Source: Oscillospiraceae bacterium | GTDB taxonomy: Bacteria > Bacillota > Clostridia > Oscillospirales > Oscillospiraceae | Assembly (NCBI GenBank): GCA_902767915.1 | Contig: CACXJE010000013.1 | Coordinates: forward strand, 1-62,125 | DNA length: 62,125 nt | Direction of reading: 5' to 3' | Part shown: positions 47,030 through 60,374 of the stretch, one piece after another | How the letters are laid out: every line of letters begins with the position of its first letter | Position numbering within the stretch: position 1 is the first letter of the stretch | Position numbers and translations under genes: made by a program | Notes under the pieces: generated by a model | What the model was told of the DNA's origin: nothing | The model's input: the letters and a program-made list of their open reading frames with translations, nothing else | Databases searched by the model: none

Positions 47030-47779
47030 TCATCTCCTCCCGGTCCCGTTGCAGGAGGTGCATTCCCCGACGGTGTACGGATCATATCCGTCCAGGTATG
47101 CCTGAAGGTCGCTGTCTCCGTAGTAGTATTTCACGTAGCCGGTTCCGTTGCAGACCGGACATTTTTCCCCTGTAGGACGACTCCCGGCGGAACTGTTCCC
47201 GGTGGAACCTTGGCTGCCGAAGGAATTGATGTCGTCTCCAACGCTGGCTGGCGCGGTCAGTTCCGCATCAGGTGAAATATAGGCGATGGTATCCCCCTTC
47301 AAGAGAACGTCCTCCGACACCGTGTATTCATTCCCGTCTTCATCCCGAATGATCGGGTAAAGCAAGCAGGAGCTTGCACGGATCGAAAACCCATTATGTT
47401 CCATCTCTTCATACTCAAATTCGATGGTCGACAGCTGACGCAGCATCTCTTCCGTAAAGGTACCGTCTCGCAGGTGCCCTGACAGCGTAGGGGAAAGGAT
47501 AATATCGCGAATACCGCAGGAAACGTGCGTATCACCGATCATTTTAAATGTTTTGATCTGCACCTCAACGGACAGATCGTCCACCTGAAATGCCTTTTTG
47601 TATTCGTTGATTTGAGGAGCAAGGAATTCTTCGATCACCTGCGCGGCTTCCGATTCCGTAATTCTCTGATTCTCCGGTTCTTTTGCGCATCCGGTAAAGC
47701 ACAGCATCAGCATTCCGCAAAGGACCTCAAACAAGAGGAGGCCTCTGCACATTTTGTGGGATAAGGGTTGCTTTTCCAT
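47030..47779 (-). CDS. Lipoprotein with DnaJ-type CxxCxGxG zinc motifs
   Basis: 249 residues. Signal peptide with lipobox-like CFTGC (Cys31). The mature part is soluble and ends in two DnaJ-like motifs, CPVCNGTG (about 212-219) and CTSCNGTG (about 239-246), separated by a Tyr-rich loop, predicting one zinc site outside the membrane. AAAGGAG precedes the ATG. It lies 51 bases after the ABC exporter gene on the same strand and is the last gene of the cassette at 47-53 kb. Function unknown; a chaperone-like or assembly role for exported product is conceivable. Confidence 0.7.
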   Translation of the reverse strand: MEKQPLSHKMCRGLLLFEVLCGMLMLCFTGCAKEPENQRITESEAAQVIEEFLAPQINEYKKAFQVDDLSVEVQIKTFKMIGDTHVSCGIRDIILSPTLSGHLRDGTFTEEMLRQLSTIEFEYEEMEHNGFSIRASSCLLYPIIRDEDGNEYTVSEDVLLKGDTIAYISPDAELTAPASVGDDINSFGSQGSTGNSSAGSRPTGEKCPVCNGTGYVKYYYGDSDLQAYLDGYDPYTVGECTSCNGTGRR

Positions 47780-47830
47780 GTCATTCTCCTTTCTTGAGGC
47801 GAAGGGGATCTGTTTTTTGATTCCTGGTCG

Positions 47831-49609
47831 TCAGAAATCCATGGCCATCCGCGCAGAGGTCTCCTGGTCCAGCTCGGTGACGGATTTTTTTGTCACCTGG
47901 TAGACCCGGCTGCAGAGGCCCAGCACGCTGGGGCGGTGGGTGGTCACCACACAGGTCTTGTTGGGCGCCTGGGTCATGATGTTTTTCAGAACTCGGCGCT
48001 CCGTGGCCACGTCCAGGGCGGAGGTGGCCTCGTCCAGCAGCAGGATCGGTGCGTCCCGCAGCAGGGCCCGGGCAATGGACAGCCGCTGGGCCTGCCCCTC
48101 GGAAATTCCCTTGCCCCGGCGGCCCAGGGCGGTCTGCAGACCGTTGGGCAGCTTCTCCACAAAGTCCCAGGCGCAGGCCAGCTCCAGGGCCTTCCGCATC
48201 TCGGCCTCGGTGGCGTCCTCCTTGCCCATCCGCAGATTCTCCTCGATGGTGCCGGAAAGCACGTTGTTCCCCTGGGGTACGTAGGCGATCAGCGGCCGGG
48301 TATCGGCGTTCAGGGCCAGCTCGGTGCCGTCCGCAGCCCGGATCACGGCTGCGCCGCGATCGGGATGCACCAGGGCCAGCAGCAGCCGGACCATGGTGGT
48401 CTTGCCCTCGCCGGAGGCGCCCACCAGGGCCACGATCTCTCCGGGCCGGGCAATAAACCGGGCGTCCTCAATGACGGGCTCCCGCTCCTTGTAGGAGAAG
48501 GTCAGATCCCGCAGCTCCAAAGACAGACCGTCCGCGGCTTTGTCGAACAGCTCCTCGCTTTCGATCAGGTGGACCTCCTTGGGGATCTCCACCAGCTCCC
48601 GGACCCGGTGGGCCGAGATCGAGCTGCTCAGAAAGTTCGGGATGATGGAAACCAGCTTCTTAAAGGCGCTGGACAGGCCATTGGACTGCTGCAAAAACAG
48701 GGTCATGGTGCCGAAGGTGAAGCCGGTGCCCGCCCAGAGCCGATACAGGCAGTAGCCGAAGGTGGCCATGGACACCGCCGTGCCGGACAGGCCCATGAAA
48801 ATATTCGTGTGGATCGTGAAGCGGTTATAGTCCAGGGCGACCTTCTTGATGTCCTCCAGCTGGACGTCCAGCTTTTTCTCGTACTGGTCCGTGATGCCGA
48901 AGGATTTGATTGTGTCCAGGTTGTAGAAGGTCTCCACCTCGAAGCTCATCATGGTGCTGCTCTGCTCCCGGAACTTCTGGCCGTAGTACCGCTGCTTCCG
49001 CAGCACGAACCGGGAGGCAAACAGCAAAATCGGCGCCATGGCCAGGGAGAAAAAGGCGATCAGGGCGTCATAGTGGTACAACACCAGGAAGGTGGCTACG
49101 AATCGGTAGGTGGATATCAGAATCGTCGGCAGCCAGCTCACCGCGTTGGAGCCGATGGTGTTCACGTCGTTGGAGAAGCGGTTGACGATGTCGCCGCTTT
49201 GGTATTTGTTCAGCTCGGCCCAATCGCTGTCGATGATCTTGGAGAAGATGTCGGCCCGGATGTCGTTGCCGATCTTGATGCCGATTTTCAGAGAGATCCG
49301 GCCCAGCAGATTTTCAAAAACCATGCTGAACACGGCGCTGCCCACCATGATCGTGAACAGCAGCCAGAGCCGCGAGGCCTTGTGGCCGATGATGATGTCC
49401 AGGGTGACCTTTGCAAGGATGCTGGAAACCAGCCCCAGGGTCGTGCCCAGGATGCCGGCGATGGTATAAAAGGCGATGGCCCATTTGTAGCGTTTGGAGT
49501 AGGAGAAGATCCACTTCCAGTCGTCCAGGATCTCCCGGAAGGTGCCGTCCTTGAAACGCCTCCGCATTTCCTTGACAAACTGGAAGGAACCGCTCTTTTC
49601 TTCTTTCAT
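47831..49609 (-). CDS. ABC exporter, fused permease and ATPase
   Basis: 592 residues from MKEEKSGSFQ (ATG 49607-49609, GAGG upstream; a TTG five codons earlier is an alternative). Six membrane segments (about 40-310) and one nucleotide-binding domain: VGASGEGKTT (Walker A), ISEGQAQRLS (signature), ILLLDEATSALD (Walker B), THRPS (switch His). Works as a dimer. There is no N-terminal C39 peptidase, so it would not itself cleave a double-glycine leader. It follows the nucleotidyltransferase gene by 24 bases. Type and place fit a peptide or glycolipid exporter. Confidence 0.93.
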   Translation of the reverse strand: MKEEKSGSFQFVKEMRRRFKDGTFREILDDWKWIFSYSKRYKWAIAFYTIAGILGTTLGLVSSILAKVTLDIIIGHKASRLWLLFTIMVGSAVFSMVFENLLGRISLKIGIKIGNDIRADIFSKIIDSDWAELNKYQSGDIVNRFSNDVNTIGSNAVSWLPTILISTYRFVATFLVLYHYDALIAFFSLAMAPILLFASRFVLRKQRYYGQKFREQSSTMMSFEVETFYNLDTIKSFGITDQYEKKLDVQLEDIKKVALDYNRFTIHTNIFMGLSGTAVSMATFGYCLYRLWAGTGFTFGTMTLFLQQSNGLSSAFKKLVSIIPNFLSSSISAHRVRELVEIPKEVHLIESEELFDKAADGLSLELRDLTFSYKEREPVIEDARFIARPGEIVALVGASGEGKTTMVRLLLALVHPDRGAAVIRAADGTELALNADTRPLIAYVPQGNNVLSGTIEENLRMGKEDATEAEMRKALELACAWDFVEKLPNGLQTALGRRGKGISEGQAQRLSIARALLRDAPILLLDEATSALDVATERRVLKNIMTQAPNKTCVVTTHRPSVLGLCSRVYQVTKKSVTELDQETSARMAMDF

Positions 49610-49633
49610 GGCAGGTTGCCTCAACTGTTTCGA

Positions 49634-50920
49634 TTATGATTTGCTTTGATCGATGATGTCGTACTGTTGCAGCAGGGCCACCCGCTCCCGGCCGATCCGC
49701 AGAGAGGCGGTGGGGCTCTGTTTGCCGTATTTCCCGCGGTGCAGCAAATAACCTGTCAAGCGGTGCGTCCATGCAGCCGGCACCATCCAGGGATGTTTTT
49801 TCAGGAAGGGATAGCTGCCGGACAGCTTTTGTGCCGACGGAAACAGGCTGGCGCGAAGACCGCTTGTTTGATTTTTGGAGCCCAGGCGGTCGTCGGCAAC
49901 CGTGGTCAGGGTGATGTTGGCGCTGTGGAGCCGGTCGATGTCCGCCCCGTGGAGGCCGGATTCCAGCACGTCCGTCAGCAGAGGGCCTTCGTCCACCTCC
50001 AGGGCGGCGAAGGCTGCCGGCGCGGGGATGCCGAGGTATTTTTCTCCGATGCGATAGACCGCCGCTGTGAACCGGTGGCATCGGAGCTCGGTGCAGATTT
50101 GCAGCAGTTTTTCAAAGTCGATCCGCGCGGCATAGGCCCGGCTGAACAGGCAGACGTCCGAGATGATCCGCAGGCCGAAGCCACTGAACAGGAAGTGCTT
50201 GTAGGCGTGGAGGATCAAAAACAGCAGGTGCAGATTGGGCTCCGGGGTCAGCAGCTCCACGTCCTGGACCTGTTCCCGGTCCGGGGCATCGAAGGCATCG
50301 GCAAAGAGGCCGTTGAAGCCGCTGAAAATCGGGGATTCCGGATCAAAGAGGCAGGTGTGGAGCTCGATGTAGAGCGGAGAGTCCGGCTTGTGATAGGAGA
50401 GCTCCCAGAGCGCATTCGGATCTGTGGCCCCGTGGTCCTCCGTCAGACCCAGCTCCAGCAGGGCGGCATGGAAGGCCGCGGCCTGCTCGGGACGGATCAG
50501 CAGATCGTCGTCCACCGAGGGCCGCAGCAGGGGCTTCGGATAGAGCTTGCGGCAAATCGCGCCCTTCACCATCAGGGGCTCCAGCCCCCGTTCCCGCAGG
50601 GCCAGGATCAGATTCAGAAACTCGTTCTCCTGGACCACCTGGCGGTTGACCTGCGAAAGCACGAGGGTTCTCCAATCGGGACGCCCCTCATCCGTCGCCT
50701 CCGGCGACACCTTCCCCCCGGGGGGAAGGCTTTTCCCGAGGACAGCACGGGCGGAGGGCAGAGAGAAGGCGGCGTCCAGCACCAGCGGCAGCAGCTTGTG
50801 ACGCTCCGCCAGCTCCAGAACCGTTTCCCATTCCGAGCCGTCCAGCGCCGGATCCGTAGGCTCCTCCCCCTGAATACCGGCCTGCACCAGGGCAAGAAGA
50901 GTTTGGTCATTTCTCGTCAT
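49634..50920 (-). CDS. Uncharacterised nucleotidyltransferase-family protein (NTP_transf_5-like)
   Basis: 428 residues. MVKGAICRKLYPKPLLRPSV then DDDLLIRPEQ is the nucleotidyltransferase core of the PF14907-type family, with the Asp cluster that would bind metal-NTP. HTCLFDP and LHLLFLILHAYKHFLFSGFG are also typical. Such proteins recur in lasso-peptide and other RRE-containing clusters, where their reaction is unknown. Its ATG overlaps the PqqD-like gene by 14 bases. Residues about 61-78 (LPPGGKVSPEATDEG) are encoded by an inserted palindromic element. Confidence 0.85.
   Translation of the reverse strand: MTRNDQTLLALVQAGIQGEEPTDPALDGSEWETVLELAERHKLLPLVLDAAFSLPSARAVLGKSLPPGGKVSPEATDEGRPDWRTLVLSQVNRQVVQENEFLNLILALRERGLEPLMVKGAICRKLYPKPLLRPSVDDDLLIRPEQAAAFHAALLELGLTEDHGATDPNALWELSYHKPDSPLYIELHTCLFDPESPIFSGFNGLFADAFDAPDREQVQDVELLTPEPNLHLLFLILHAYKHFLFSGFGLRIISDVCLFSRAYAARIDFEKLLQICTELRCHRFTAAVYRIGEKYLGIPAPAAFAALEVDEGPLLTDVLESGLHGADIDRLHSANITLTTVADDRLGSKNQTSGLRASLFPSAQKLSGSYPFLKKHPWMVPAAWTHRLTGYLLHRGKYGKQSPTASLRIGRERVALLQQYDIIDQSKS
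50685..50730. repeat. Palindromic element inside nucleotidyltransferase gene
   Basis: GTCGCC-TCC-GGCGAC (50694-50708), then a perfect 20-bp palindrome CCTTCCCCCCGGGGGGAAGG (50710-50729). Both are read in frame. Confidence 0.83.
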
Positions 50921-51209
50921 TTTCAGACTCCATTGTGTCTTTAATCAAAAAGCCTTTTTTATACATTTCAGCATAAAATGCATCCAGTCTGCTTTGGATT
51001 TCCTCATCCGTTTTTTTCGTCAGGATTTGATGTACACGAAGAATCTTCGCATCCGAATCCTCTCTCCCCAACAACTCCCAGGTTGCAGCCCATAACATTG
51101 TGAGACGGATAATTGTATTGCACTCCTGCCAAACTGCGCGCGTTGGAATCAATACGTTCGCATTGCATATTTTTGTCAAAACAATACCGGGACGAGGTAG
51201 ATACTTCAT
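50907..51209 (-). CDS. PqqD-like peptide-binding protein (RRE)
   Basis: 100 residues. LPRPGIVLTKICNANVLIP is the beta-strand lead of the PqqD fold, followed by a helix-rich part (RLTMLWAATWELLG; HQILTKKTDEEI). PqqD-type domains (RiPP recognition elements) hold the leader of a precursor peptide for modifying enzymes. Its ATG overlaps the stop of the kinase-like gene by 4 bases, and its end overlaps the nucleotidyltransferase start by 14, so the three are translated together. The call rests on fold pattern and context rather than strong motif identity. Confidence 0.72.
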   Translation of the reverse strand: MKYLPRPGIVLTKICNANVLIPTRAVWQECNTIIRLTMLWAATWELLGREDSDAKILRVHQILTKKTDEEIQSRLDAFYAEMYKKGFLIKDTMESENDEK

Positions 51210-52027
51210 TGTATATTTCCTGCTTTCTGTGGATCTGAAAAAATAGCGTCGAGCAACAGCATAGTAGAGCCCGGCACCTCATGGGTAACAAGTTTCCAGA
51301 GGGGAACCGCTCGAAGCAGCCTTGTCTCAAGCGCAGCTACGCTACGAATCGTTTCTGGAGCCCAAGCTGTATGAATGAAATGTGTATATAAAGGGAGAAT
51401 CGCTTCTTGCTCAGTGATTGCGGATAGCTTGTTTTCTTCGCCGCGCTCCAAAAGAATAATGCCCGCCAATGGGGCAGCCTCGGCACCTCTCCAGTTCTCT
51501 TTCCCATTCCACGGGGATGGGTGGATGCGGACAGACTCCACCTCCGGCTTTGCCGGTTCCCCTCCCCGAAAGCCGCTTTGCGGCGTTTTGGGAGGTTTTT
51601 GCGAAACGTCGAGGACCGATTCGGAATGGCAGAATTCAAGAACAGGGCGGTCGCCGCAAATGATGCCGAATTCCCCCGGGCGGAGAGCCTGCAGCGTCTT
51701 CGCCTGGGTGGATTTCCCCACGCCGCTGTTGGCGCAGATCAAATAGGCCTTGTCCTGCCAACGCAGCGCAACAGCATGGAGGATCACGCGGTCAAACGGC
51801 AGCAACACATCGGAGCAGCAGTTTGTAAACACACTATACTCGGAATAGGCGTTAAAAGCAATCCCCTGTTTTGCCATTTCGTCCCAATCTCTTTGCGGGA
51901 GAACAGCCACGGGCGCAGTCTCTGCTGCCTTTGAAGCAGAATAATCGCGGAAGTATTCAATTGTACCAGAGAAACGGAAATCACAAGTCACCGTGATACC
52001 CGCAAGGTTGATTTGATATGTATACAT
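51206..52027 (-). CDS. HPr-kinase-like P-loop protein
   Basis: 273 residues if started at MYTYQINLAG (ATG 52025-52027). A longer frame to 52075 exists but would begin inside a hairpin, and neither start has a clear ribosome binding site. Walker A is CANSGVGKSTQA (98-109), with GDRPVLEF and SPWNGKENW beyond it, as in HPr-kinase-like proteins of RiPP and HPr-rel-type clusters, which phosphorylate peptides in some lasso pathways. A 25-residue insert between GDRPVLEF and VRIHPSPW is repeat-encoded (KPPKTPQSGFRGGEPAKPEV). Lower GC than the housekeeping genes. Substrate unknown; the 82-residue product next door is a candidate. Confidence 0.8.
   Translation of the reverse strand: MYTYQINLAGITVTCDFRFSGTIEYFRDYSASKAAETAPVAVLPQRDWDEMAKQGIAFNAYSEYSVFTNCCSDVLLPFDRVILHAVALRWQDKAYLICANSGVGKSTQAKTLQALRPGEFGIICGDRPVLEFCHSESVLDVSQKPPKTPQSGFRGGEPAKPEVESVRIHPSPWNGKENWRGAEAAPLAGIILLERGEENKLSAITEQEAILPLYTHFIHTAWAPETIRSVAALETRLLRAVPLWKLVTHEVPGSTMLLLDAIFSDPQKAGNIQ
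51540..51597. repeat. Palindromic element inside the HPr-kinase-like gene
   Basis: CCGGC-TTT-GCCGG (51544-51556), GCCGC-TTT-GCGGC (51572-51584) and an outer CCTCCC/GGGAGG pair (51561-51566 with 51590-51595). Read in frame as a Pro/Gly/Lys-rich insert. Confidence 0.82.
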
Positions 52028-52038
52028 AACCGTAATAC

Positions 52039-52073
52039 GAAAAGAGAAGGACGCGTATGCTCCTTCTCTTTTC
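52039..52073 (-). terminator. Hairpin between the 82-residue gene and the kinase gene
   Basis: 13-bp perfect stem (52039-52051 with 52061-52073), 9-base loop. The minus-strand 3' arm ends CTCTTTTC then GTATT. It is placed as an attenuator or processing site that would make the upstream small gene more abundant than the downstream maturation genes. Confidence 0.7.
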
Positions 52074-52086
52074 ATCAAATTTCAGA

Positions 52087-52335
52087 TTAAGGCATTATAA
52101 TATTCGGCTGGACAGAATTCGTAAAATAGGCTTCTCCGAGAGCAACCTCGTCGATCCAACCGGTGATTGCATCAAGATCTCCGTCCATCAAATCCGAACG
52201 TAAAGCGAACCAATAGGAATACCCAGGAATCTGAAAGAAATCTCCAAGATTTTTGCCATTAAGCAACTCGTTAAGCTCCTGATACTGTTCATTTGTAAGC
52301 ACAACATAGGGCTGGTTAATTACAATGTTTCCCAT
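52087..52335 (-). CDS. 82-residue protein, candidate peptide substrate of the cassette
   Basis: 82 residues from MGNIVINQPYVVLTNEQYQE (AGGAGGGA upstream). Acidic overall, no signal peptide, one Trp-rich/aromatic stretch (PGYSYWFALRSD, about 37-48), ends VQPNIIMP. No family recognised and no Cys. It lies directly upstream of the kinase-like, PqqD-like and nucleotidyltransferase genes, separated from them by a hairpin, which is the usual place of a RiPP precursor. That role is inference; a small accessory protein is the alternative. Confidence 0.6.
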   Translation of the reverse strand: MGNIVINQPYVVLTNEQYQELNELLNGKNLGDFFQIPGYSYWFALRSDLMDGDLDAITGWIDEVALGEAYFTNSVQPNIIMP

Positions 52336-52358
52336 ATGAATCCCTCCTTTATTATCAT

Positions 52359-52721
52359 TTAATTACCGCCGACGCCGATGTTCTCAGCGATTGTTTCCGT
52401 ATATTCATCCTCAATATCAAGGCCGGAGAACTCCGTTTCCGGTTCCGACTGCGTATCAGCGGCCGAAGGAGAAGCAGGCGGTTCCAAACCGGGTTCTTCA
52501 CTCTGAGCAGGAACCTCCGGTTCAGAAGCACCCGTATCCTGATTTACAGCCCCGGATTCGGGGATATTCTCGTCAGGATCAAGCTGCGCAGAGTCGCCGG
52601 TCGGATCATTAATATCGGGAACTATCGGCTTTTGGTCAGCCTTTTTTGACTCTGGCGTACACGCCGCAAAGAGCAAGCTGATTACCAACAAGCAGGCAAG
52701 AATCATCCATATACGTTTCAT
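52359..52721 (-). CDS. Small acidic lipoprotein
   Basis: 120 residues. Lipoprotein signal with LLFAAC (Cys21), then a mature chain of about 100 residues, rich in Pro, Glu, Asp and Ser with hardly any hydrophobics, ending GLDIEDEYTETIAENIGVGG-N. No Cys after the lipobox. GGAG precedes the ATG. It lies 23 bases upstream of the 82-residue gene. Either a surface partner of the cassette or, given the glycine-rich C-terminus, an alternative substrate. Not recognised. Confidence 0.65.
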   Translation of the reverse strand: MKRIWMILACLLVISLLFAACTPESKKADQKPIVPDINDPTGDSAQLDPDENIPESGAVNQDTGASEPEVPAQSEEPGLEPPASPSAADTQSEPETEFSGLDIEDEYTETIAENIGVGGN

Positions 52722-52815: not shown

Positions 52816-55800
52816 TTAATTGGGGAAGTGACCCCATTCCGAAGCAGTTCCGTTATTCCAGAACTTTGTGACGAAGTTCTCGCTGCTAGGTGCACTATCA
52901 TTGCTGCTTCTTATTGTCAGTTGTTGAGTCGCATTCCAGAAGTTGTCCCCTGCAGGAGTCGTGTTGGGATCGAATCTCGCAATGCGGAAATATTTCCAGG
53001 AACCGGCAGGAACAGCAATCGAGCGGATATCACCGCTTCCGGTAGGAGCAGCAAGTACCCATTCACTGCAATTCGTTTCGTAATTGCCGGCTTCATTGTA
53101 GAATCTGACCCAAATCTTTGCTCCAGCAGTAGCCCATCCTCCTCCGATCTCCTGACCATTCGCAACATTGATGTACAGCTTCTCGGTGCCGTCGAAGGAG
53201 CGGTTCCAGCTAAGCGCAGTCTTTTGATCATTGAAGTTGACGGTCAAGCCGTTGTTGCGAACCTCTACACCGTCGGGAGTGGTCCAGGTGGGCAGCATGG
53301 TGAAGGTCTTGGTGTTTGCGTCGGTCGCAAGCTCGGTCATGCGAGTCACCAAAACCGCACCGCCGGACAGCCCGAAGTTCTCCGCGGTAACTGTGGTCGC
53401 AACAGGATTCTCCGGATCGCCGTCAGAGCCGGCTTGCTGCACCAGGGTGAAGCTGGTGGAGAGACCGGTCTTGCTCTTGAAGTTGTCGGTCGTCGTTGTA
53501 GTGCCGCCAACATTGACGTAGAAGCCCGCCTTGTTTTTCTGATAATTGCCATCATCATACAGAGACAGCAGATACACGTCAATGATCTTATTGCCCAACG
53601 TGGTATCGAAGGTGTAGATGACCTTGGAGGTCAGATACTTGGAGGAGACCTCCTTCAGGTAATAGACCTTGTTGGCAACGGGGGTCATAGTCTTGCCGTT
53701 GACGGTTTCGGCATCGGCTGCAGTCCAGACCGCGGGCCACTTCTTGATATTGCCTTGGTCGTCGCGGACGTAATCGTCGCCTTCCTTCATATACGCCTTA
53801 TTCGTGCCGTTGGTGTAGAGGGAGCTGCCGTCGTAGACATGGAATCCGGAAATCGTCTTCCGAGCGATGGGGGAGGCAACTGCAGACGTTGCAGAGGTGG
53901 GCACGGCAGTCCAACCGACGGAGACAGAAGAAGCGGTGTAAGCATCTGCCTCAGCCTGAACAGCAGTGTGCTCAATGTAACCATAGGCCAGGCCGTCGTT
54001 GTTCTTTTCGGTGTAGTAACCACCGTACAGATAACCGGGCTGCACGAAGGTGGTCAGGTCTGCGGTGCCGACTGGATAGCTCATGCCAGCGGGTGCGTCA
54101 CCGGTGCCGACAGGCATGCCGACCGCTTCCATCACACCGGTGGAGGAGTGGACTACGTAGAACACGTCGCGCTTCCAGACGGCGTAGAGGCCGTGGTAAG
54201 GCATCTTCTCGTTGGGGGCGATCTGCGTCACCTCGGTGCCATCGGTCATACCGGTTTCGTTCTTAACCGTGAAATAGGCCTCGGTATGGTTTTCATCAGC
54301 AGGATGGTAGACCAGCCAGAGATCCTCCTCATTCAATCCATAGTAGGACTTGATTTTTGTTTTACCATCCACTGTGTCCACATAGGTCTCATACATGCTT
54401 TCGTCACGCAGTTTCTCCGGTGCGTAAGTGTTTACGTGCTCGGGTCGCTCCGGGAGTCTTGCCCAGCCGAGGAAGGTATAGCCGTCATATTCCAAGTCAT
54501 TTCCTGTACCATCCTTAAACATCTCAAAGGTCTCGATGTCAAAGCCCTCGTTCATGAAAACATCATTGGAATCATCCATGTCATCGGTACCGTTGTTAGC
54601 GTACCATGTTACATGGGTTTTCTTCTGAGGCTCAATCGGAGCGTAAACCGCATGGAGGGTGATGGCATACTGCTTGGTCACGATCTTCTCAAAGACAGGG
54701 GTAACGATCAGGTCAGACTGGACGTTGCTAAAGTCTACGTCCCAGCCGATGAAGCGGTAGTTGCCGGATGGAGGCGCAGGATCGGCAGGGGCCGTGGCAG
54801 CTCCACCCTCTTCAACCGTTTGCCGGGAAATCACGTTGGAATCCTTGTCAACAAAGACGACCGTATAAACGTTGGTACCGGTTTCGGTCTCAAACTGCGC
54901 GTAGACGTCCATGTCTTCTGTGACGTAATCAAATCCGGTCTGATCCCATCCGGTAAAGACATATCCGGCAGGCATGCCAAGCTCACTCTCATCGGGCTCG
55001 TCCGCGGCGCCGTTTTCTTCTACCTCCTGCGTAGAAATCAGAGCGCCCTGCCAGCCGTAGAACTTGACTGTGTACATGGTCTTATTGTGGACGATTTCTT
55101 TGCGGTAGAGCTGTATGGTCTGCGCATATTGAGAATCAAAATCAGTTGCAAAACGTGTAATCTCTCCAGTGCTTTGATTGTAGTAGCGACTCATATACTT
55201 TGTGCTAGTGCCGATTCTCAACTGCAGCTGTCTGTTGGTATAATACCAGCCACCATAAGTCTCATCAGATTCGCCGGGATACAAAGCTTCATTGCTTGTA
55301 CTGGTGCTAGCATAGGTTCTCAGATACATACTTGCATTATTCCCGGATTGAATCAGATACTTACCAGAAGTGTTTGTACTGATGAATTTCCAGACAACGT
55401 GATCAATATTTGCATTTATAATGCTGTCATTAGAAACACCAGTTACATTTCCCTCGTTGTCCCTGACAGCTGCAATCGAATAAGCAAACCAATTTCTACC
55501 AGAAGTTAAATAGTATCGACTCGCATCAGGGTTATAATTCATTAGGAGGTAGGCAGTCCCATTGCTGGAAATAATGCCAATCAGGTATTCCTCATTCGGC
55601 TTGATCTCATCTGTAGGAACCCAAAGAACTTCGTCTCCTTCTTCTGCCTGCTCGGGAGTGTTGACAACCTCCATATCGTCAACTGCAAGAGCGAACATAT
55701 CTGTTACGTCGTGGTGGCGAAGAACGATATACACGTTTCCGGAATAAGAGGAAGGAATCGTGTAGCTGTACTGTTTATACTCTCCCGTCAGTGTGATCTG

Positions 55801-58800
55801 ATCCAACTTCGTTCCGTTGCTCTCAATGCTTCCGGTATTGGAGATATTCGTGGTAACATAGACAGAAATCACTTCAGATGCATAGTTTGCGTCAACGCCT
55901 TTTGCCCAGAAGGATATTGTGTTCTCACCGTCGGCAGGAAGATTTACAGCAGGCGTGCAGATCCAGTTGTCCGGGGTCAGCGCTTCTCCATTGGTTGAAG
56001 AAACATTGATGTAGGAGTCGGATCTCAAATAGTAGGTGCCGCCATGGGAAATAGTAGCTGTAGATGGATTCTCACTGACCGCAAACTGATACCCATCTCC
56101 ATCAGAGTCAAACCGTGTCCACCCCGTCAAGCTATTATCTTCAAAGTCCCAGCTTGCAAGCGTGGTCGCATCTTCCGCTGCCAGGGGGCGGTTTCCGCCG
56201 CCGATACTGCGGTTCAGCGCAGCAGCCGGGTTGACAGAGGCCGTACTTCCAACAAGGGATTGCGAATTGACGTCAGAAACCACGGCGTCTTCCGCATTCA
56301 GCGTAAAGGGTTTACCGGGGTAAACGTGGACGGTTTCACCTGCCTGATTCGTATACTCCCAATACAGGAAGCGCTTCCCGGTTTCCGGATCCGAAGCCGC
56401 ACGTCCAATCGCCTCCGTGCCGTCCTGATAGGGTTTTCTGTCGGTGGAGGTCTTGTTATCGGTGCCGTCATAATTGGAGGGGAAGGTTCCTGTTCCGGTG
56501 GAGGGATTATTGAGATCGTCTGCTTTGTAAATAACTGTCAGGCCGTTGGCGCCGGGCAGATCCTTCCGCCACTTGGCATAGAGCTTGCGAATGCCGACCA
56601 CGAAGGGACGCTCAGAATCGCCGAACGTTTCTCTGTCCGTCGTAGAATAGAACGCTGCCGTGCTGGTGCTGTCGTTCTCTTTGTAGAAGAGTTTGGAGGC
56701 AAAGTTATAGGGAGTGGTAAAATTCGGATCCTGATACCAACCGACGAACTCATAGCCGGTTCTGGTGGGCTTGATCTCCTGGCCGGAGGAAATTTGTTCA
56801 TACTCCGCGATCTTAAATTCCCAATCCTGGTTTTCCGGCAGAGTACCGTCGTTGGCGTACAGCGCTACACGGATCGCCCTCTGCTGCCACTTGGCATAGA
56901 GGACAACGCCGTCCATCGGCATTTTCGCCAAGGTCGTAGTGGTAGCCGGATTCTGACAGGCGCTGTCCAGATACCAGCCTTGGAAGTCAAAGCCGGTCAG
57001 AGTCGGAATATAGTAGTTTGCTCCGCCGACATCGTAGGAGGTGATGTCATCCTGATACAGGATATTGCCGTCTTCGTGGATATAGGTACGGTAATTGACT
57101 TTGTCGCGGCCCAAAATCTGATTTCCGCCTGTACTATTATCCTTACTGTGGCTGTAGTATATGCCGTCCTGATACAGGATGCTGTAAGATTCACGGTCGT
57201 ACAGGAAATACAGGGTATTTTCCGCAGCGCCGGAGGCGAACTGACCGCTGACGGTCGTAGTACCGCTGGAAGAGGAGGTCCAGGGCGTACCGTCTTCAGC
57301 AATCGTAATCGATTTGCCTGTGCTGTCTGTAATCCTGTCACGGATAAAGCCGTTCAGTTCCCAGAAGTCGTCATTGTAGAATACAATGTTGAAGTCGTTT
57401 TCAAAGTCGTCGTAGACTACATACTCTTTTCCGGAAATCGTGACCTTATTCTCTGATTCGGGCAGGGCTTCCACATAATACACAAAACGCCGTTTCGTAT
57501 TGCTTGTCGTCATGTGCCGATATGTGATATCCTCCGCCGGCATCTTGGGAATCTTTGTAATACGTGCGGTATAGGTCGTGGAATTGGTTGGCTGCCAGGA
57601 AGAAACGGGATCTGTCTGCGGATAGGTTTTTCCGTTGCTGCCGGTAAAATTCCAGATATCTACGATATCAGCTCCGTAAGGCTTCTGTACAGTCTTGACT
57701 GTTATATAATTGGCCTCCTGATAGTAGGTCGGATTTGATCTATAATAGACCTGCGCATCTCCAAGATAGTATGTCGACGATGATGATACGCGAATAACCC
57801 AGCCTGCACTCGATGAATACCAGTATACCGGATAATAAGAACCATTTTGTACAGCAACAAACGGCGTGCTGCTATAACTTGTATAACTGCTGCCATTAAT
57901 CGATGCAAAATCATCCGCGGGTACTGTGGCATATGTATAGCTGCTGGTTTTTTCATAAACCTGCCAGTATTTCGTTGTATTATTTATCGTGAAAGTAACG
58001 TAATAATCCCCGTTGCTTGCGTCACTGGTAGAAACGTTACTGGCTCGGACCTGCGTGTAAGTCCCGTCTTTGTCAGTGAACGTAAACGTATACTGGTTCC
58101 GGTCAAAGTAGACGTTGATAACCGTGCTGTCGTCCGGCTTAACCGTCGCAGACTCGATGGTTCCGGTTTTGACCCGGAAGCCCTCATACTTGGTTTCCAC
58201 GCCGTCGACAGTGACATAGGTGTCGTTGCCGGATCCGTTTTTGGTGACGGAAGTGCTGCTGTCAACGGTAGCATTCCGCACAATCTGGGATTTGTCGAAG
58301 TCGTAACCGTTCCCATCCAGATTCTGCTTCCAGAACAGGACGGTATAGTTGGCCTTGGTATTTCTGGTCCAGTGGGCTTCCAGATCGTAATTTGTCTGAA
58401 TGGTCCTGTCGGAGAAGGTAAACTCGGTGTTGGTGCCCTTCAAAAACCAACCATCGAAAACGTAGCCGTTCAAAGTTGGTTTCGTCGGCTCGTCCGACTT
58501 TTTCAACTCGCCGTCCAGGATGAAGATCGGCGGGGTGTAGGTGGCGCCCTTGTACTCGTCGCTGCCGCCGGTCTTCTCGGAGAAGGTAATCCACTTACCC
58601 TTGCGGACATATGCCTTGAAGCTGAGATCCTCATCGATCTGGATCTCTTCATAGTTCTCGTACACTGTCTGGGAAGGATCGCCCACTATGGTCCAGCCGC
58701 GGAATGCCGCGTCGCTGTTCTCTGCGCTGTACGAAGCAAAGATACTGTAATCCATCTTGCTCTGCTTGGTGTAGATGGAGTCAGATTTGACGATGGTGGA

Positions 58801-60243
58801 ACCCGTCTCGTTGAGATAGGTGACCGTGAAGTTATTGAAGTACATGGCGTAAACCTTGTAGGTATCGCCTTCCTTCACGGTACCACTTTCAAGCAGGGTA
58901 ATGATATCCGCACGGACCCTATCCAGGCTGCAGTCCTTATAGGTGCCATCGGTGTTCAACAGATCGTCCGCCGTATAATCGTCATTCGTGGTCCACCCGC
59001 AGAACGTCATGGTGTTCTGCATCTGGGAAACAGCAGGATCCGCGACAACGTTCTCAATGGACTTGCTGCCGTCCACAGTGACAATATCATGCTTCGTAAC
59101 CGTGTAGGACTTGACAGGTGCGGCGCCGGTACGGGTGCTGTCATAGAACTCGACCGTCAGACGGGCGTTGTCACCGGTCTCGCCGTCGCCGATGACCGCG
59201 TATACAGAAAAGTCCTTGGCGTAGAAACGCAGAGCTTTCTCAGTAGCGGAACGGTTGGTGGAAACCATCTCCACGCCGCTGACTGCCTCTACGTTGCCCG
59301 ATTTATTGATGTGGACCACCGTCGGGTTTTCGATGTTCTGCAGATTGTCCAGGGAAATCTGCACTTCAACTGCAGCGTTGGGTTCGATCTCTTCCCCATC
59401 CTTGATAAAGGAAATATCTGCAGCAGCAAATACCCGAGATTGCGCTTTGGCTGCGAGGATCTCCAGGGAAGCCTCGTCGGTTACAGGTGCAAGTGCCATG
59501 CCGGTGCCCTCAGGCAGAGCGCCCTCGGGGGCGTTGACCGCAACGTTCATGTCCTCGCCGGCTGCGCCGTTGAAGCTCTGGGCGGGCATCGGGACAGGAT
59601 CCACAGGCTTGCCTTCCAGCAGCTCGGCCAGACGCATGATGATCACAGCGATCTGCGCACGGGTGGCGGTGCCCTTCGGACGGAAGGTGCCGTCAGAGAA
59701 GCCCGCGATCAGGTTCGCAGCGGTGCACTCCGCGACCGCGCCTCTCGCGTAGCTGCTGATGGTGGCAGCGTCGTTGAAGTTCGCGGCGCCGTTCTGCGGC
59801 AGCTCGTATTCCATGACCTGCACAAACTTGGACAGGATCACGCACATATCCTGACGGGTAATCTTGCGGTTCGGCGCAAATTCCGTCGCGCTGACGCCGC
59901 TGACGATCCCGTTCTGTGCCGCCCAGGCCACAGAGCCGGTATACCACTTGCCGGCCGGTACGTCACTGAATACAGAAGCCGTATCGTCCAGGCCCTTCAC
60001 TCCGGCAACCTTGGCCAGCACCGTGACGAACATCGCACGGGTGACCGGGGTGTTGGGAGCAAAGCTGTCCTCACTGACGCCCGCCATGTAGCCTTTTTCC
60101 GTGACGTATTCAACCGCCGCAGAATACCAGCTGCTGTCGGGGACATCCTGGTACTTGCCCGCTGCCATTCCGGGAATCAGAATGGAAGGAAGCAGCATCA
60201 CCAGGGCGAGGACCACTGCAAGTCCACGTCGTACATTTCTCAT
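52816..60243 (-). CDS. Giant SLH-domain surface protein with InlB-type repeats
   Basis: 2475 residues from MRNVRRGLAVVLALVMLLPS (ATG 60241-60243). Signal peptide (1-27), three SLH domains (about 30-80, 90-142, 155-208) that would anchor it to pyruvylated wall polymer, a ZU5-like domain (about 220-350), then many InlB B-repeat/Flg_new-type modules (GFDFQGWYLD, GYEFVGWYQD, LYAKW). A choice-of-anchor-J/cleaved-adhesin domain lies at about 1360-1530 (WDFEDNSLTGWTRFD), followed by more repeats (1720-1870) and a beta-rich C-terminus ending in FWNNGTASEWGHFPN. No LPxTG. Likely an adhesin. Located just upstream of the PqqD/kinase cassette on the same strand. Confidence 0.93.
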   Translation of the reverse strand: MRNVRRGLAVVLALVMLLPSILIPGMAAGKYQDVPDSSWYSAAVEYVTEKGYMAGVSEDSFAPNTPVTRAMFVTVLAKVAGVKGLDDTASVFSDVPAGKWYTGSVAWAAQNGIVSGVSATEFAPNRKITRQDMCVILSKFVQVMEYELPQNGAANFNDAATISSYARGAVAECTAANLIAGFSDGTFRPKGTATRAQIAVIIMRLAELLEGKPVDPVPMPAQSFNGAAGEDMNVAVNAPEGALPEGTGMALAPVTDEASLEILAAKAQSRVFAAADISFIKDGEEIEPNAAVEVQISLDNLQNIENPTVVHINKSGNVEAVSGVEMVSTNRSATEKALRFYAKDFSVYAVIGDGETGDNARLTVEFYDSTRTGAAPVKSYTVTKHDIVTVDGSKSIENVVADPAVSQMQNTMTFCGWTTNDDYTADDLLNTDGTYKDCSLDRVRADIITLLESGTVKEGDTYKVYAMYFNNFTVTYLNETGSTIVKSDSIYTKQSKMDYSIFASYSAENSDAAFRGWTIVGDPSQTVYENYEEIQIDEDLSFKAYVRKGKWITFSEKTGGSDEYKGATYTPPIFILDGELKKSDEPTKPTLNGYVFDGWFLKGTNTEFTFSDRTIQTNYDLEAHWTRNTKANYTVLFWKQNLDGNGYDFDKSQIVRNATVDSSTSVTKNGSGNDTYVTVDGVETKYEGFRVKTGTIESATVKPDDSTVINVYFDRNQYTFTFTDKDGTYTQVRASNVSTSDASNGDYYVTFTINNTTKYWQVYEKTSSYTYATVPADDFASINGSSYTSYSSTPFVAVQNGSYYPVYWYSSSAGWVIRVSSSSTYYLGDAQVYYRSNPTYYQEANYITVKTVQKPYGADIVDIWNFTGSNGKTYPQTDPVSSWQPTNSTTYTARITKIPKMPAEDITYRHMTTSNTKRRFVYYVEALPESENKVTISGKEYVVYDDFENDFNIVFYNDDFWELNGFIRDRITDSTGKSITIAEDGTPWTSSSSGTTTVSGQFASGAAENTLYFLYDRESYSILYQDGIYYSHSKDNSTGGNQILGRDKVNYRTYIHEDGNILYQDDITSYDVGGANYYIPTLTGFDFQGWYLDSACQNPATTTTLAKMPMDGVVLYAKWQQRAIRVALYANDGTLPENQDWEFKIAEYEQISSGQEIKPTRTGYEFVGWYQDPNFTTPYNFASKLFYKENDSTSTAAFYSTTDRETFGDSERPFVVGIRKLYAKWRKDLPGANGLTVIYKADDLNNPSTGTGTFPSNYDGTDNKTSTDRKPYQDGTEAIGRAASDPETGKRFLYWEYTNQAGETVHVYPGKPFTLNAEDAVVSDVNSQSLVGSTASVNPAAALNRSIGGGNRPLAAEDATTLASWDFEDNSLTGWTRFDSDGDGYQFAVSENPSTATISHGGTYYLRSDSYINVSSTNGEALTPDNWICTPAVNLPADGENTISFWAKGVDANYASEVISVYVTTNISNTGSIESNGTKLDQITLTGEYKQYSYTIPSSYSGNVYIVLRHHDVTDMFALAVDDMEVVNTPEQAEEGDEVLWVPTDEIKPNEEYLIGIISSNGTAYLLMNYNPDASRYYLTSGRNWFAYSIAAVRDNEGNVTGVSNDSIINANIDHVVWKFISTNTSGKYLIQSGNNASMYLRTYASTSTSNEALYPGESDETYGGWYYTNRQLQLRIGTSTKYMSRYYNQSTGEITRFATDFDSQYAQTIQLYRKEIVHNKTMYTVKFYGWQGALISTQEVEENGAADEPDESELGMPAGYVFTGWDQTGFDYVTEDMDVYAQFETETGTNVYTVVFVDKDSNVISRQTVEEGGAATAPADPAPPSGNYRFIGWDVDFSNVQSDLIVTPVFEKIVTKQYAITLHAVYAPIEPQKKTHVTWYANNGTDDMDDSNDVFMNEGFDIETFEMFKDGTGNDLEYDGYTFLGWARLPERPEHVNTYAPEKLRDESMYETYVDTVDGKTKIKSYYGLNEEDLWLVYHPADENHTEAYFTVKNETGMTDGTEVTQIAPNEKMPYHGLYAVWKRDVFYVVHSSTGVMEAVGMPVGTGDAPAGMSYPVGTADLTTFVQPGYLYGGYYTEKNNDGLAYGYIEHTAVQAEADAYTASSVSVGWTAVPTSATSAVASPIARKTISGFHVYDGSSLYTNGTNKAYMKEGDDYVRDDQGNIKKWPAVWTAADAETVNGKTMTPVANKVYYLKEVSSKYLTSKVIYTFDTTLGNKIIDVYLLSLYDDGNYQKNKAGFYVNVGGTTTTTDNFKSKTGLSTSFTLVQQAGSDGDPENPVATTVTAENFGLSGGAVLVTRMTELATDANTKTFTMLPTWTTPDGVEVRNNGLTVNFNDQKTALSWNRSFDGTEKLYINVANGQEIGGGWATAGAKIWVRFYNEAGNYETNCSEWVLAAPTGSGDIRSIAVPAGSWKYFRIARFDPNTTPAGDNFWNATQQLTIRSSNDSAPSSENFVTKFWNNGTASEWGHFPN

Positions 60244-60374
60244 AGTGTCTTTCCCCCTTGTGTAACATAAATAACATACTGATTTGGTAGCATTGTCGGA
60301 TTTTGCCGTTTCTCTGCAGCAAAGCCAAGGTGGCCACTCCACCTTTCACTAATACTCCATATTATGTTCAAGTT

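Follow-up and report, generated by a model that had tools for sequence, protein, structure and literature searches.

Which product is modified by a gene cassette of RiPP type (ribosomally synthesized and post-translationally modified peptide), when no lasso-peptide cyclase lies beside it, is the question raised by a locus of an Oscillospiraceae bacterium (NCBI GenBank assembly GCA_902767915.1, contig CACXJE010000013.1), of which positions 1 to 62,125 were analyzed as one stretch, referred to as the window. A sequence-only reading of this DNA had described a cassette of genes for a PqqD-like protein, an HPr-kinase-like (HprK-like) protein, a nucleotidyltransferase and an ABC exporter, and had proposed that a peptide or surface product is phosphorylated, nucleotidylated and then exported. 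Our analysis suggests, with a probability of roughly one in two, that the locus represents a cassette of a RiPP recognition element (RRE), an HprK-like kinase, an NTP transferase and an ABC exporter, similar to that of the linear polyphosphorylated peptides (LPPs; Popov et al., Nat Commun, May 2026, PMC13381572) and repurposed for a giant adhesin, whose small partner it modifies and exports. The genes follow one another on the minus strand in the order given below, features within a gene being placed after that gene.

52816-60342, minus strand: giant surface protein, 2508 aa as an open reading frame (ORF), its ATG likely near 60243, with three SLH stretches, Listeria-Bacteroides repeats and a Cleaved_Adhesin domain
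53206-54162, minus strand: conserved C-terminal domain (CTD) of the giant, ending about 129 residues before the giant's C-terminus
52359-52721, minus strand: lipoprotein stalk with a hydrophobic start, a lipobox-like Cys, a low-complexity acidic linker and a short tail (..IGVGGN)
52087-52335, minus strand: 82-aa small protein, the candidate substrate, its tail Ser being the ninth residue from the C-terminus
52037-52075, minus strand: predicted attenuator-like hairpin between the small ORF and the kinase gene
51206-52027, minus strand: HprK-like kinase with SGVGKST (P-loop), GDRP and WNGKE all present
51535-51603, minus strand: dispersed repeat, in frame within the kinase gene
50907-51209, minus strand: PqqD-like discrete RRE, overlapping the kinase gene by 4 bases
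49634-50920, minus strand: NTP_transf_5 protein (PF14907, E 1.7e-39) with a KG..DDD motif, overlapping the PqqD-like gene by 14 bases
47831-49624, minus strand: MsbA-like ABC exporter (PF00664 and PF00005)
47030-47779, minus strand: CxxCxGxG lipoprotein, outside the conserved set

Gene order, strand, coordinates and both overlaps, as given in the sequence-only reading, were reproduced by the ORF and Pfam analysis, and no peptidase domain was found among the Pfam matches of the ABC exporter, which that reading had also stated. Its set of kinase, nucleotidyltransferase and exporter genes held up as well, whereas the free-standing five-gene cassette did not, since the giant and the stalk belong to the unit too; the upstream 2508-aa surface protein had been missed as a part of it. 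For the CxxCxGxG lipoprotein, no relative was detected among the genes called in other loci, and five proteins of the locus gave no PADLOC match to a defence system. The alignment with relatives points to the ATG at 52027 as the most likely start of the kinase; the listed TTG at 52078 abuts the hairpin, and an ORF starting there would run through it.

The link between the giant and the cassette emerged from their joint occurrence in related genomes. In the family, 200 genomes were searched, 33 of which had a kinase match (E≤0.001), and the best kinase matches (E<1e-13) were those in the window's own genome (G000) and in G123, G174, G004, G195, and G104, the next genome following at 1.5e-9. The CTD, represented by an alignment of 35 rows from giants adjoining kinases (including those of the window, G004 and G174), was found in six of the 200 genomes, namely the same six. 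Of 391 genomes sampled across the class, four had CTD matches at E≤1e-6, and in G491, the one strong case besides the window, the CTD giant adjoins a PqqD-like gene, a kinase gene and an ABC gene. PqqD-like proteins were matched in 102 of these 391 genomes, so that an RRE alone is not specific for the system. Further loci were obtained from named genomes, mostly metagenome-assembled genomes (MAGs) of rumen and gut Bacillota, by a scan with the kinase alignment (best 80 of 331, 76 distinct), in which genes were called with a codon-model caller and profiles; because these loci were chosen by kinase similarity, the linkage rates describe close kin only. No kinase was called in seven of the 76 loci, and 77 kinase genes were called in total. 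A CTD giant lies on the same strand within 2 kb upstream of 47 out of the 60 kinases having at least 1.5 kb of upstream sequence, the condition applied to all linkage counts. The recurrent order is CTD giant, small ORF, kinase, PqqD-like gene, in some cases the stalk, NTP-transferase gene and, in some cases, the ABC gene; in an alternative order, represented also by the window, the stalk is located between the giant and the small ORF.

A tree of 89 kinases (at least 225 aa each) splits with a support of 100/97 into 69 and 20 rows. The larger clade comprises 52 CTD-linked rows, seven that are not linked and ten of unknown linkage, and the smaller group one CTD-linked row and 19 others (the label "without CTD" of L036-L050 being taken from the 200-genome search and not from their own DNA), which places 52 of the 53 CTD-linked rows in the larger clade. 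Within this clade, 45 of the 52 kinases with sufficient upstream sequence follow a CTD giant within 2 kb. The window kinase and the kinase of locus L109 form a sister pair (99/95), and SLH domains occur in the giant of L109 as well. The own genome encodes a second HprK-like kinase (L049, G000:C14, 2941-3663), which falls into the other kinase clade, and two members of the larger clade (L083 and L090) originate from MAGs labelled Bacteroidota. Genes for a signal peptidase I-like (SpI-like) protein were found beside the kinase in several loci, L113, L117, L121, L124, L038, L039, L042, and L046 among them, all with kinases among the 20 rows, whereas the called genes of the window and of the CTD loci included none; the S26 matches of the own genome are on contigs C1 and C51, not on C13. 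Five queries were used in this search, one of which (L044, 3652-4131) is not SpI-like, and its two extra matches (L107 and L117) were left out.

These distributions bear on an explanation that we regard as unlikely, namely that the product is a free secreted phospho-peptide, as in an ordinary LPP-like RiPP pathway, with the giant being merely a frequent neighbour in surface or capsule loci. LPPs often co-localize with capsule loci, and their role, like that of paeninodin-type lasso peptides, is described as unknown in the discussion of PMC13381572, as far as the consulted sections go; moreover, the genes after the ABC gene in L033 include CpsB/CapC and two that are Wzz/BY-kinase-like, and seven of the 52 clade kinases have no CTD giant upstream. 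A mere neighbour would, however, hardly be expected to coincide with the kinase in six out of six genomes among 200 and to keep the order giant, small ORF and kinase, and the SpI-like leader peptidase is absent among the genes called in the CTD loci. The region 1027-5652 of L033 also encodes an Ig-like surface protein, and like-sized genes, compared by length only, recur in L058, L061, L068, and L088.

The candidate for the small partner of the giant is the product of the gene in front of the kinase. A small ORF was called just upstream of 65 out of the 77 kinases, mostly with 60-115 aa; these represent 64 distinct sequences (one was counted for two L072 kinases), some of which are probably not genes. 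An [FYW]xxP motif within the first 22 residues, behind a basic residue or Asn, occurs in 34 of the 65 (mean of 1000 shuffles 2.7, highest 9) and resembles the leader motif bound by RREs in lasso and LPP precursors (PMC13381572, in the part consulted). The 82-aa ORF of the window belongs to a different group, which lacks this motif, and shows no signal peptide. When 15 ORFs of other loci, which had been grouped by eye in advance, were combined into a profile and 234 small proteins were searched with it, the window ORF was matched at E 3.6e-4, and its score was reached by 0 of 2000 shuffles. The conserved small gene postulated in the sequence-only reading accordingly corresponds to one family occupying the same place in relatives. 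Ser is present within the last 15 residues of all 16 family tails, the tail of the window protein being FTNSVQPNIIMP. By analogy, this tail Ser is likely the phospho-acceptor, because LppK modified Ser but did not act on a Thr or Tyr replacing it, and the LPP kinase is described to phosphorylate a Ser of its precursor (PMC13381572, in the part consulted). A strict EF-hand pattern was found in 11 of the 65 small ORFs and has no bearing on that of the window.

The identities of the PqqD-like protein and the kinase were derived from relatives, profiles and predicted fold. Family PF05402 was matched by 33 of 44 PqqD-like relatives (E≤0.01), and their profile recovered TbiB1, chain 9x8z, TfuB1, chain 9x90 and a PqqD from the PDB. 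The AlphaFold2 (AF2) model of the window protein, with a mean predicted local distance difference test (pLDDT) value of 91.5, retrieved TbiB1 and TfuB1 chains on Foldseek ranks 1 to 6 (template-modelling (TM) scores 0.68-0.84, first E 9.6e-4, top hits with leader). As modelled, the protein thus appears to be a lasso-type RRE with the winged-helix fold of TbiB1 and TfuB1, in agreement with its earlier designation. Outcomes which the sequence-only reading had listed as speaking against itself, namely loci devoid of a small gene, a PqqD-like protein of another fold or a lasso set in a relative, did not appear. For the kinase, the P-loop pattern is present in 67 and W.GKE in 74 out of 76 sequences; the window protein alone reached no Pfam or NCBIfam cut-off. 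It resembles HprK-related kinase A and the SynChlorMet protein ScmC (TIGR04352 and TIGR04249) by weak P-loop similarity (E about 0.01), with about 15 bits lying far below the respective cut-offs of 200 and 125. In L035 (7314-8576), the NTP_transf_5 gene is broken into two ORFs.

Taken in sequence, the 82-residue protein would be held by the RRE, the HprK-like kinase would add a phosphate to it, with the conserved Ser of the C-terminal tail as the most likely site, and the NTP_transf_5 protein would decorate this phosphate further. A glycosyl-phosphate is likelier here than a nucleotidyl group because PsmN of the pseudomycoidin cluster, a studied relative, extends the phosphate by one or two hexoses (PMC8498205, in the part consulted), which renders the nucleotidylation assumed in the sequence-only reading doubtful. 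The ABC transporter would export the small protein without leader removal, the giant and the lipoprotein stalk would leave by Sec, and outside the cell the small protein would partner the giant, probably through the CTD.

The enzymes might instead act mainly on the anchored stalk or on the giant, ahead of their export by Sec, and the small ORF would then serve as a chaperone or regulator. This possibility, which seems quite improbable to us, draws on the stalk tails: 50 stalk candidates were chosen by size, hydrophobic start and low-complexity composition alone, and 41 of them were kept by eye for a similar C-terminal tail, nine being dropped, before the tails were aligned. Judged by eye, the tail comprises roughly a short strand rich in [IVL], a Gly or acidic residue, in many cases Q, and a G among the last residues. 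No conserved Ser or Thr was found in these tails, proteins exported by Sec are poor targets of a cytosolic kinase, and the leader-like motif sits in the small ORFs. Relatives of the window stalk were detected by phmmer in L122, L106, L115, L123, and L082. A motif common to stalk tails and small ORFs was suspected by eye in L096, L104, and L112 and is not claimed.

Several results weigh against the proposal of a modified small partner of the giant. The PqqD-like protein of the window alone matches no Pfam or NCBIfam family, PF05402 included, and only the first of its Foldseek matches reached E≤0.001. Binding of the window's small ORF by the RRE is unproven because this ORF has no YxxP-type leader. 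The KG...D.D motif pattern fits incompletely, in 42 of 65 NTP proteins, that of the window included. In its middle part, the window kinase has about 30 residues more than its relatives, where the dispersed repeat lies (about 70 bp with palindromic parts; matched 14 more times in the own genome at E≤1, with 11 of these matches at E<2e-5), and this insertion may impair the window's copy of the enzyme. Regarding linkage, besides the seven clade kinases without an upstream CTD giant, PqqD-like and NTP-transferase genes were called within 2.5 kb downstream of only 40 and 36, respectively, of the 47 CTD-linked kinases, and a stalk candidate was found in only 41 of 69 kinase loci. When stalk tails and small ORFs were tested by profile for a common motif, the outcome was negative (3 of 62 versus 0.55 in shuffled sequences, with a best score below the shuffled maximum). 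Since the CTD alignment was built from giants adjoining kinases, the weight of the co-occurrence lies in the CTD being absent from the remaining 194 genomes. G123 has weak CTD matches (best 2.6e-8), located on contigs other than that of the cassette, which ends just past the small ORF, and no cassette was found in the DNA examined around them; likewise, neither a kinase nor a PqqD-like protein was matched in the 11-19 kb examined per place for the weak class-wide cases G466 and G519. Overall, the locus represents a conserved and specific gene system, for which a link of RiPP-type enzymes to the assembly of a giant surface protein is plausible.

The CTD itself gave no Pfam match (E≤0.01) in any of the 35 aligned members. 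Its AF2 model is mostly beta (pLDDT 80, predicted TM score 0.82), and a comparison with the PDB revealed no fold match at E≤0.001; antibody chains, which ranked first, were rejected as relatives (TM near 0.2). In 48 out of 57 giants the CTD ends at most 42 residues before the C-terminus, and in nine, 107-233 residues follow, as is likewise the case in the window. Considering the 47 giants of at least 900 aa, a hydrophobic stretch within the first 60 residues was present in 34, a hydrophobic C-terminus in none, an LPxTG-like motif in one, and SLH domains, as in the window's giant, in three, the SLH profile having been built from the three repeats of the latter so that distant SLH domains may be missed. 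ORFs of 42-45 aa and of one kind (..F..A.LE....F...DVIT.S....) directly adjoin giants with weak CTD likeness in L152 (8842-8970), L153 (9861-9989), and L154 (8720-8857), with no kinase cassette in the surrounding DNA examined. In L045, L039, and L050, giants without CTD adjoin kinase/RRE clusters having an SpI-like gene, accompanied in L045 by a radical SAM gene.

The hairpin described in the sequence-only reading is well supported (z -6.7 versus dinucleotide shuffles). Folding of the gap that separates the kinase from the small ORF gave z<-2 in 42 of 46 loci, and in a second run with plain base shuffles a hairpin was found in 39 of 41 such gaps versus 38 of 109 other same-strand gaps; gaps after the giant fold in 9 of 11 cases. 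A scan for terminator-like patterns did not include the window hairpin among its matches. As an attenuator, the hairpin could keep the giant, the stalk and the small protein abundant and the enzymes scarce, and a stepwise falling expression would fit an order of structural genes followed by enzymes.

Extending the proposal of a small partner of the giant, we tentatively consider that gut and rumen Bacillota have a new system of surface assembly, in which the small protein, devoid of a signal peptide, would be modified in the cytosol by RiPP-type enzymes, exported by an ABC transporter of its own and joined to the CTD of the giant, which in most cases has no recognisable anchor, and a disordered stalk tethered to lipid or membrane would hold the complex by its conserved tail; in this complete form the model is rather doubtful. 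If true, RiPP machinery would serve to build a structure of the cell surface instead of a diffusible natural product. With enzymes of this kind tied to a giant surface protein, a testable physical partner would be available and, thus, a direct way to ask for the purpose of the modification. A possible answer to how giants without a recognisable anchor stay on the cell would also be at hand, and for rumen and gut bacteria attention is drawn to a family of small proteins, a stalk protein and a C-terminal domain not represented in Pfam.

Among known systems, the clusters of the phosphorylated lasso peptides paeninodin and pseudomycoidin comprise an RRE, an HprK-like kinase, a nucleotidyltransferase and an exporter (PMC8498205, in the part consulted), and the same enzymes are encoded here. 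The cassette could accordingly be a lasso-peptide cluster whose cyclase and peptidase were lost or lie elsewhere, an explanation that is largely refuted and retains very little probability. The B2 peptidase (PF13471) was matched at E≤0.001 in four of 20 cassette genomes, over the cut-off in one, with no match in the own genome or near any cassette. For the cyclase (PF00733), three partial matches only were obtained in the own genome (78 percent complete), none of them on the cassette contig; the family was matched in 14 of 14 genomes, as expected of a common fold, the nearest one seen being a partial match about 10 kb from the G004 cassette. Unlike the precursors of paeninodin and pseudomycoidin, moreover, the small ORF shows no lasso-like core. 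The lasso reading was therefore rejected, in line with the earlier statement that cyclase and transglutaminase-like peptidase are absent beside the cassette. The conclusion drawn from it, that this is not a standard lasso cluster, stands as regards the lasso parts, and the description of the cassette as uncharacterised is qualified by the related LPP pathway, in print since May 2026.

LPP loci, as far as described in the consulted part of PMC13381572, have a cyclase-less enzyme set, an SpI-like leader peptidase and a YxxP precursor. Like the window cassette, they encode a discrete RRE, an HprK-like kinase, an NTP transferase and an MsbA-like exporter, and, like the class described here, a small ORF (35-200 aa) and, in some loci, capsule-type neighbours. 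In contrast to LPP loci, this cassette has no SpI-like peptidase, and the LPP precursor motif YxxPxVLxHQxIxFETxxS was absent from the window ORF on reading its sequence. Because two defining LPP features fail, the class was not filed as LPP, though its enzymes resemble those of LPPs. Its kinases fall into another clade than the SpI-linked ones examined, in a tree that does not contain LppK itself. The main text of PMC13381572 contains none of the terms "adhesin", "S-layer", "lipoprotein", and "Clostridia", and no publication joining PqqD/RRE, HPr kinase and a surface protein or adhesin was found in the open-licence literature searched. The giant CTD protein and the stalk are the components by which this unit is set apart from LPP loci as described there.

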